This document shows positions 28-43,034 of a stretch of 64,000 nt of DNA, piece by piece. The DNA lies in contig NZ_CP011254.1 of the NCBI RefSeq assembly GCF_001006005.1, positions 1,984,001 through 2,048,000 on the forward strand, in the 5' to 3' direction. Positions within the stretch are counted from its first letter, which is position 1. Every line of letters starts with the position of its first letter. This stretch comes from Serratia fonticola (GTDB lineage: Bacteria > Pseudomonadota > Gammaproteobacteria > Enterobacterales > Enterobacteriaceae). The notes under the pieces were generated by a model. That model was given only the letters and a program-made list of their open reading frames with translations. It had not been told where the DNA came from and did not search any database. The translations under genes were made by a program, and so were the position numbers.

Positions 28-56
28 TCGATCGGTCCCCTCTCCCTGTGGGAGAG
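28..56. repeat. Left half of intergenic palindromic repeat, split by IS110
   Basis: A GATCGGTCCCCTCTCCCTGTGGGAGAG-type sequence. It matches the left part of intact copies elsewhere (for example 44496-44540). The expected right arm (GGTTAGGGTGAGGGG) is not adjacent but resumes at 1259. The repeat is therefore interrupted by the IS110-family element. Confidence 0.8.
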
Positions 57-71
57 ATACCGTCTTGTCGG

Positions 72-1031
72 CTATCCGGCAAGCGGTATTTCCGCATTAA
101 ATGTCTTTCCTGATTTCACCACACCATAGGCCAGTTGCAGCAGTTTTCGCATCGCCGCACACACTCTCTCTTTGCCCGATTTCCCACGCAACTTCAGCCT
201 TTCTGTTAAGTCTTTAACCACAACATTGTATTGGCTTGCCACCACCGCGGGCATGTATAACGCGCTTCGTAGCTCACCGTGTCCCACTTTCGATAACCGG
301 CTTTTCCCTTTAAACATCCCCGACTCACATCGCTGTGGATTCAGTCCTGCGTACGCTACCAGGGCCTTGCTGCTGGTGAACCGACGCAGGTTTCCTGCGA
401 AGGCCAGCAGGCTGGAGCTCAGCATCTCTCCCACTCCAGGGATACTTTTTAGCAACTCGCTGTCCCGTTTCAGGTCAGGGTTATCATCGATGTGCTGACT
501 GATTTTCTTCTTCGTTTCTCGTATCAGTTCATCCAACGTGGCGATGTGCTCATTGAGTGAAGGGACGATGACTGCTTCGGCCACCTCCAGGCGATTTTCT
601 TCCATCTGACGCATCTCTTCCAGGTTCTTAAGATGCCTGACCAACGCGGTCAACTGGCGTTCGCTCAACGGGGCTGGGAACCACGGGTCAGGCTGATGCA
701 GTGCGCAGTAGCGGGCTATCATCGCTGCATCGCTTTTGTCCGTTTTGTTCCGGGCCAGTTCTGTATTGCCGAAGGAATGGATACACGCCGGGTTCATCAG
801 ACTGACGTGGTAGTTGTTGTCTGCCAGATAAGTGGCCAGTTCCGTACTGTAGCTCCCGGTGGCTTCCATACAGACATGACAGTCGCCAAAGCGGCTCAAC
901 CAGGCTGCGAACTCGCGGCATCCAGAAGGGGTATTGGCAAACTTTTTGGTTTTATACTTCTGATTGTCCAGCAGTACGGCGACATCAAATTTGTGTTTGG
1001 CGATATCAACGCCGACAGGGGTTCTACGCAT
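72..1031 (-). CDS. IS110-family transposase/recombinase (DEDD type)
   Basis: The 319-residue protein has the two-part IS110 architecture. The N-terminal RuvC-like DEDD domain starts VGVDIAKHKFDVAVL, with likely acidic residues Asp9, Glu56 (CMEATGSY), Asp98 and Asp101 (NKTDKSDAAM). A coiled-coil stretch covers about 130-185. The C-terminal Transposase_20 domain contains the helix-hairpin-helix SIPGVGEMLSSSL and an AGLNPxxxxSG...SKxGxxxLR motif, with Ser237 the likely nucleophile. Members of this family recombine donor and target DNA under guidance of an RNA from the element's own non-coding end. The gene is full length and uncorrupted, so the element may be active. The 5' side carries a candidate bridge RNA (1076-1250). 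Confidence 0.93.
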   Translation of the reverse strand: MRRTPVGVDIAKHKFDVAVLLDNQKYKTKKFANTPSGCREFAAWLSRFGDCHVCMEATGSYSTELATYLADNNYHVSLMNPACIHSFGNTELARNKTDKSDAAMIARYCALHQPDPWFPAPLSERQLTALVRHLKNLEEMRQMEENRLEVAEAVIVPSLNEHIATLDELIRETKKKISQHIDDNPDLKRDSELLKSIPGVGEMLSSSLLAFAGNLRRFTSSKALVAYAGLNPQRCESGMFKGKSRLSKVGHGELRSALYMPAVVASQYNVVVKDLTERLKLRGKSGKERVCAAMRKLLQLAYGVVKSGKTFNAEIPLAG

Positions 1032-1075
1032 TATGGCACTCCATAACCATGTCTGAAATTTATCGCCGGACCATC

Positions 1076-1250
1076 CTTATATGTGGGTGCTCATAGGCAC
1101 AGGATACCGTTCGGTCTAGAAGGCGACAGGGAAATAGACAGCCGGGGCACAATCTCTCCCACGGGCTCATAGGCACTAGGGTTAGGGGGAGCTCACCGGC
1201 TATCTCCCGATGATCAGTCGGGGATCTTCTCCGCTAAGGCGGAGAAGATC
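1076..1250 (-). ncRNA. Candidate IS110 bridge RNA (left-end non-coding region)
   Basis: Read 5'->3' on the minus strand. First comes a perfect 12-bp hairpin (1250-1223, loop of 4). Next is a target-binding loop with CCCTAACCCT (1187-1178) and GTGGGAGAG (1162-1154). Then comes a donor-binding loop with ACGGTATCCT (1110-1101) and ATAAG (1080-1076). Both loops share GTGCCTATGAGC (1176-1165 and 1100-1089). The first guide equals the left target flank on the transposase strand. The second is the exact complement of the right target flank. Both include the CT core. The donor guide ACGGTAT equals the element's right end, and ATAAG complements its left end. The order hairpin, target loop, donor loop is as described for the IS621 bridge RNA. 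The transcript ends are not known. Confidence 0.78.
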
Positions 1251-1258
1251 AAGACATA

Positions 1259-1275
1259 AGGGTTAGGGTGAGGGG
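1259..1275. repeat. Right half of intergenic palindromic repeat, split by IS110
   Basis: AGGGTTAGGGTGAGGGG continues the repeat whose left half ends at 56. A partial look-alike at 1178-1191 belongs to the element's bridge RNA rather than to the target. Confidence 0.75.
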
Positions 1276-11774: not shown

Positions 11775-11812
11775 GCTCCCTCTCCCTTTGGGAGAGGGTT
11801 GGGGTGAGGGGC
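11775..11812. repeat. Intergenic palindromic repeat, intact copy
   Basis: GCTCCCTCTCCC, TTT, GGGAGAGGG, then GTTGGGGTGAGGGGC. The central CCCTCTCCC/GGGAGAGGG forms a hairpin. It lies between terE and terF. Other copies are at 13145, 13324 (partial), 13441 and 44496, and two are split by IS elements. Confidence 0.8.
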
Positions 11813-13144: not shown

Positions 13145-13190
13145 ACCCCTCACCCTAACCCTCTCCCACAGGGAGAGGGAACCGATCGAG
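13145..13190. repeat. Intergenic palindromic repeat, intact copy (inverted orientation)
   Basis: CCCCTCACCCTAACCC, TCTCCCACAGGGAGAGGG, then AACCGATCGAG. This is the reverse complement of the copy at 11775 with the ACCGATCGAG tail also found at 44496. It lies downstream of terF. Confidence 0.8.
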
Positions 13191-43011: not shown

Positions 43012-43034
43012 GCCCCTCACCCCAACCCTCTCCC
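43012..43034. repeat. Left half of intergenic palindromic repeat, split by IS481
   Basis: CCCCTCACCCCAACCCTCTCCC ends at the left edge of the IS481-family element; the repeat resumes with CACAGGGAGAGGGAGCTG to the right. CTCCC (43030-43034) is the left copy of the target duplication. Confidence 0.85.

Follow-up and report, generated by a model that had tools for sequence, protein, structure and literature searches.

The 64,000-nucleotide stretch of Serratia fonticola DNA analysed here (the window) carries an intact insertion element of the IS110 group, and we put at about 97% the probability that this is an autonomous IS621-type element, in which an RNA from the left non-coding end (LE) and the recombinase pair target and donor and strands are exchanged at CT. 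The LE would be the gene of a bridge RNA with two 5′ stem-loops, a target-binding loop (TBL) and a donor-binding loop (DBL). In a REP-like repeat of the host, CCTAACC-CT-CTCCC would pair with the target loop; in the excised circle, the two element ends, joined as ACGGTAT-CT-TATGT, would pair with the donor loop. Recombinase and RNA together would then exchange strands at the CT common to both. What the element itself shows is its sequence, a predicted fold, covariation, the use of one target by six copies and the conservation of the catalytic residues; that it is transcribed, that its RNA is bound, that a circle forms and that catalysis occurs we infer from published work on IS621. An earlier note on this DNA had proposed the IS621-type bridge RNA plan, and the covariance model, the guide/flank covariation (31 elements) and the donor covariation (28 elements) described below all agree with it. 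The features, in window coordinates, are as follows.

57..1258, minus: intact IS110-group insertion element, 1202 bp between two CT cores; span common to six near-identical copies
72..1031, minus: gene of a 319-aa IS110 recombinase (DEDD RuvC and Transposase_20), stop codon included; profile and structure matches
1032..1258, minus: LE, 227 nt, predicted to encode the bridge RNA; fold compared with shuffles
1259..1268, minus: left target flank CCCTAACC plus CT core (core at 1259-1260); sequence of six copies
48..56, minus: CT core (55-56) plus right target flank; sequence of six copies
1059..1214, minus: match to a covariance model built on bridge RNAs of other genomes; 100.5 bits, E 4.3e-25
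1223..1250, minus: predicted 5′ stem-loop 1, 12 bp; fold and comparison of relatives
1206..1222, minus: predicted 5′ stem-loop 2, CCCGA/UCGGG; fold and comparison of relatives
1136..1205, minus: predicted TBL; fold, relatives and covariance model
1178..1186, minus: left target guide CCUAACC-CU, 9 nt; equals the left flank
1165..1176, minus: GTGCCTATGAGC in the apical hairpin of the TBL; 12-nt identity with the DBL one
1154..1160, minus: GGGAGAG (7 nt) as probable right target guide, after a GU that is probably linker; complementary to CTCTCCC in 6/6 right flanks
1152..1153, minus: putative TBL handshake guide AU; fits donor positions A6 and T7 by inspection
1061..1128, minus: predicted DBL; fold, relatives and covariance model
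1103..1110, minus: left donor guide ACGGUAUC; equals right end ACGGTAT plus core C
1089..1100, minus: the same 12-mer in the apical hairpin of the DBL
1076..1084, minus: right donor guide AC[AU]AUAAG, discontiguous; 7/7 pairs with CT-TATGT, 6/7 without the skip
13147..13167, plus: complete target repeat, intact and unoccupied; pattern search and pseudo-site test

The element belongs to the IS110 group and is IS621-like. Its LE is long and its right end (RE) short, at 15 nt, and the covariance-model match lies inside the LE. All four guides can be made out, two in a first loop for the target and two in a second for the donor, and each takes in bases of the core. Membership of the IS1111 group, whose criterion is a non-coding region downstream of the gene and thus a long RE, was considered and rejected, as here that region lies upstream. 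The recombinase scored 225.9 bits (cut-off 140) against NF033542 (IS110 RNA-guided transposase), 96.8 bits against PF01548 and 81 bits against PF02371. The solved structures closest to it are those of ISCro4 (PDB 9t56) and IS621 (8wt6), with matches over residues 6-314; ISCro4 is the best-scoring of the solved recombinases (257.9 bits), a likeness of the protein alone. The catalytic residues D11, E60, D102, D105 and S241 listed for IS621 (PMC11208158) align with D9, E56, D98, D101 and S237 of our recombinase, positions that were counted by hand.

The LE folds at −87.1 kcal/mol (z −4.67), with none of 200 shuffles as stable, into two 5′ hairpins followed by the target and donor loops; the 12-bp hairpin that the earlier note had placed before the loops is present at 1250-1223 on the minus strand. 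Leaving out the first nine bases of the LE gave a z of −3.28 (1/200 shuffles as stable), and a 171-nt slice, cut at both ends so that the first hairpin and the terminal part of the donor stem are affected, folded no better than its shuffles (z −0.72, 47/200). Nine relatives from other genomes have the same RNA plan, and 30 of the 52 consensus pairs show two-sided compensatory change. We built a covariance model from eight of these relatives, to which the genome of the window contributed none. Searching with such a model was a check suggested in the note, and it finds the RNA of the window as the sole match in the 64 kb at E values up to 1. Given 25 loci, the model matched 24 with E values of 4.5e-6 or better, namely the six copies of this genome (L001 being that of the window) and 18 of the 19 others; the RNA of a divergent element, L044, was missed. 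In the alignment to the model, non-standard pairs are marked in the target loop of the window element. A search of positions 1-2000 against Rfam 15 with E values up to 5 gave no match. The best sigma-70-like promoter over the circle junction is weak (TTGCCG-17-TATCTT, eight of 12 consensus matches, scored without a shuffle control), and a promoter and terminator scan of positions 1-1400 returned one site of each kind, no more than in shuffled sequence.

On the target side, CCCTAACCCT occurs twice on the minus strand, at 1187-1178 within the LE and at 1268-1259 as the flank, and GTGGGAGAG, at 1162-1154 on the same strand, faces the right flank CTCTCCCAC at 56-48. We compared these matches with 125,362 pseudo-insertion sites taken from both strands of window positions 1301-64000. 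The left 10-mer was found anywhere in the 227-nt LE for 26 of them and the complementary right 9-mer for 97, and both sides matched for a single pseudo-site, which is the empty target repeat at window position 13147. All the strings named in the earlier note thus lie on the minus strand where it had put them, and its identity between first guide and left flank goes beyond chance. The complementarity that it described between second guide and right flank also stands; its length of 9 nt does not, and the right target guide is probably the 7-nt GGGAGAG, because GU occupies the place of the IS621 linker (G72-U73; PMC11208158), G or GT recurs in the relatives and CTCTCCC alone is invariant among the six copies. 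Among 31 elements having an assigned right guide, this stretch opens with G in 30 and with GT in 22. All nine right bases are matched by three of the six copies and by the relative L040, and a guide of 9 nt may therefore be considered as well. The AU just beyond the right guide is read as a handshake guide by the rule given in PMC11208158.

The 6.0-Mb genome holds six full copies of the element, a number that comes from a first search in which 40 of 190 first-look candidates were scored and also from a recombinase search with all 14 of 14 scored. Their loops are unchanged, and 6/6 are inserted at the same core position of a REP-like repeat, the sites reading CCTCACCC[T/C]AACC-CT-CTCCC with T at the variable base in four and C in two. 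Comparing further copies had been proposed in the note, and the outcome is in its favour: same target, same loops, and flanks that match the guides, with CTCTCCC as the constant part of the right match. The six lie in one target and not in unrelated sequence, so the contrary pattern that the note had named, unchanged loops in unrelated sites, is not what we observed. The core dinucleotide CT is the point of insertion, there is no other target duplication, and when the flanks of each of the six copies are joined over a single CT, the repeat results. Copy L005 adjoins a second repeated sequence whose empty counterpart, at window position 43014, is a paralogous empty site for that copy: the joined flanks match 135 of its 136 bases, with a single CT. 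Besides the occupied sites, the genome has 239 further exact CCYAACCCTCTCCC sites (the 14-bp target), 124 forward and 115 reverse, against none for the reversed control. Since 113 of these 239 carry T at the variable base, no preference for T can be demonstrated from four T and two C insertions. The guide base at this position is U, so that C sites would need a U-G pair. The window itself has five more copies of the REP-like repeat, at 11790, 13147, 13456, 43014 and 44517, four exact and one with a mismatch; at 13147 and 13456 the T and C variants face opposite ways. When we looked for a possible RAYT-type source of the repeat, three Y1 transposases came up, and four short repeat patterns were absent within about 1.5 kb of them. 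Near-identity searches for the element in plasmids and in E. coli genomes gave no match.

Since the six copies have one guide set, they cannot by themselves separate a guide from a protein that recognises the target. The guide/flank matches could be a by-product, REP sequence having recombined into the LE of an element whose recombinase protein recognises the target, and recombination could indeed put repeat-like sequence into an element that lives in repeats. Related elements bear on this explanation. The recombinase was located in 65 loci (L031-L095), of which 33 were kept for flank comparison and 32 dropped as further copies, as truncated, as lying at contig ends or as having no recognisable left end. 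In the 33 elements, that of the window included, the recombinases are 32-100% identical to that of the window. When each left flank is compared with the LE of its element, the best match averages 8.24 of 9 and reaches at least 8 in 26 of the 33, compared with a mean of 6.18 and 4.2% reaching 8 in 1,046 mismatched flank/LE pairs. At the homologous position of the loop, in 31 elements (L087 and L089, whose guide is as in L084, are left out), left guide and flank agree at a mean of 6.13 of 7 positions, at all seven in 17 and at six or seven in 24. Shuffling gives a mean of 2.48 and at best 3.55, so that none of 20,000 shuffles was as good. The signal is kept within the 11 closer relatives (mean 5.82, 0/20,000 shuffles). 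For the right guide, the mean matching run in 24 of the 31 elements, the others having no right flank or assigned guide, is 3.42 versus 1.36 when shuffled, again with 0/20,000 as good.

These figures are to be read with the following points in mind. Guide positions were mostly first located by best flank match and later found to be homologous, those of L033, L047, L049 and L044 being located by homology; hand assignment was used for the whole row of L044 and for the right guide in L033 and in L056; and related elements are non-independent, with shared guides in L053/L090 and L072/L075. Seven of the 31 elements match at five or fewer of the seven left-flank positions (L033, L047, L049, L078, L083, L092 and L044); L033 also has a mismatch at the right-flank base adjoining the core. 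The 'flank' of L089 is the end of a self-duplicated piece; its outer flank matches too. A scan of genome contigs for the element returned one locus, a remnant in Serratia silvae (L031, 1840-2110) in which the target loop is preserved and both the donor loop and the beginning of the gene are missing. At one guide position it has T for the C of the window, and the same T is in its flank, a single case with the right flank lost; T stands at that position in only one of 31 intact sites of the pattern in genome G002, which is placed in the same genus as the host.

Related recombinases thus sit in different sites, most of which fit the guide that their element carries at the homologous position of the loop; the right guide is complementary to its flank and no copy of it; and the donor loop relates in the same way to the two ends of the element. 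All three points argue against the by-product explanation, which we regard as very improbable. Least probable of all is homology-dependent insertion, in which host recombination would be driven by the 10-bp identity between LE and repeat: left flank and guide do form a 10-bp direct repeat, and three relative loci show tandem duplication of about the flank-to-guide stretch, but in 6/6 copies the junctions coincide with the CT core at either end of the element and do not fall inside the internal guide.

In the donor loop, ACGGTATC lies at 1110-1103 and ATAAG at 1080-1076 on the minus strand. The former had been read in the earlier note as equal to the right end of the element, and the left donor guide is indeed identical at 8/8 positions. 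The complementarity of ATAAG to the left end was likewise borne out, as part of a longer guide than the 5 nt proposed: the 3′ guide of the loop is ACATATAAG, 7 nt in two pieces with two nucleotides skipped, and here the skip adds one pair only (7 vs 6). Of the 33 loci, 28 could be scored on the donor side, the five others being L031, L080, L083, L092 and L044. With the skip, the right donor guide pairs at 7/7 positions in 18 elements, at six in nine and at five in one, compared with 4 to 6 without it. The pair between RD13 and the guide is A:U in 26 elements and G:C in two, of which the window element is one, and that of RD11 is G:C in 19, A:U in eight and G:U in one. Across 23 elements, the left donor guide matches the right end at 8/8 positions in 21 and at seven in two. 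Both donor guides were found by motif, so that part of each donor match exists by construction. The donor-side co-change from A:U to G:C lends support to the discontiguous pairing already in print.

The apical hairpins of the two loops share all 12 nt in the window element, compared with seven or fewer in the 28 other elements scored (29 of 32 in all; L031, L080 and L092 were unscorable and L044 was not among the 32), and none of 20,000 shuffles of both hairpin segments reached 12. The earlier note had correctly reported the same string in the second loop; it is, in the comparison of 29, peculiar to this element and not part of the general bridge RNA plan. The 12-mer is also present in the target loop of the Serratia silvae remnant. 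The simplest explanation would be that one loop was copied onto the other. It is conceivable, though we hold it doubtful, that in this lineage the apical hairpin of the donor loop was copied to rebuild the target loop, and that such exchange between loops is a natural way for IS110 elements to change target.

The same genome has a second IS110 element, L044 (C1, about 968739-969650), 33% identical to that of the window and located in the same kind of repeat. Its target loop contains GTGGGAGAG, the same right-guide string, and its right flank CTCTCCCTG contains CTCTCCC, as read by eye only. Its right end ACAGCTG matches its own donor loop, and its left guide matches at only 6/9 positions with the core. 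Judging from sequence, two divergent IS110 elements in one genome appear to be aimed at the same repeat.

Several relatives show further peculiarities. A tandem duplication of the initial 72-88 nt of the LE, with its junction at the left target guide or close to it, is present in L045, L063 (G191) and L089 (Pantoea plasmid); flank and guide form a direct repeat by design, so slippage or self-targeting could yield such duplications. At L067, L058 and L109 around 3526 (G191), right-end-like sequences (ACGGTATC or close) lie within other genes and are joined near the core to the left end of the element or to its usual right flank, junctions that are possibly rearrangements through the donor guide or microhomology. 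The plasmid-borne relatives L084, L086, L087, L088, L089 and L091 are inserted at GACATC-CT, and annotated antirestriction genes are close to five of the six (not L087). Cargo in the Fukatsuia-like copies was considered and dropped, their shared right flank ending at differing points; a search for their empty site with one short pattern found two places, both unrelated.

Bridge RNAs, their loops, the discontiguous donor guide, handshake bases, REP targeting and natural guide variation are already described in print (PMC11208160, PMC11208158, PMC11187229, PMC1525189). As described for Escherichia coli, IS621 (PMC11208160, PMC11208158) shares with the window element the non-coding region upstream of the recombinase, the target loop before the donor loop, the CT core, a 9-nt left target guide, an 8-nt left donor guide, the discontiguous right donor guide, the handshake position, the catalytic D, E, D, D and S, a REP-repeat target and a tolerated mismatch in the left guide (PMC11208160). 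The two differ in that the recombinases are about 45% identical (L073) and a different repeat is targeted; and, by the same descriptions, in the two predicted 5′ stem-loops here versus one in IS621, in a right target guide that is probably 7 nt here and 4 in IS621, and in the seven right-donor pairs, which are all canonical here whereas IS621 has a non-canonical one. Longer right target guides in some orthologues are already noted in PMC11208160. ISEc21 and its seekRNA (PMC11187229) are alike by description, with an upstream non-coding region and a bottom-strand match before the top-strand match. That RNA is described as 74 nt, and is set beside the RNA of the window by description only; natural redirection among relatives is described in the same paper. 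ISPsy8, ISPpu9 and ISPa11, other elements from other hosts, are likewise described as inserting specifically into repetitive extragenic palindromes in a paper of 2006, before the RNA mechanism was known (PMC1525189). In the library of papers searched, no publication joins IS110, Serratia and bridge RNA.

The mechanism was published in 2024, and the element is a clear further example of it and no new kind of system; modestly new are the putative copy from loop to loop and the second IS110 element that appears to be aimed at the same repeat. If loop copying did take place, it may have accompanied re-aiming at the host REP. The element is an unusually legible natural bridge RNA, with guides, target, donor ends and six insertions from one genome and 239 unused sites as background, and its right target guide is a long one that occurs in nature. 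It is a useful ortholog for work on bridge recombination, and it leaves the picture of 2024 unchanged.
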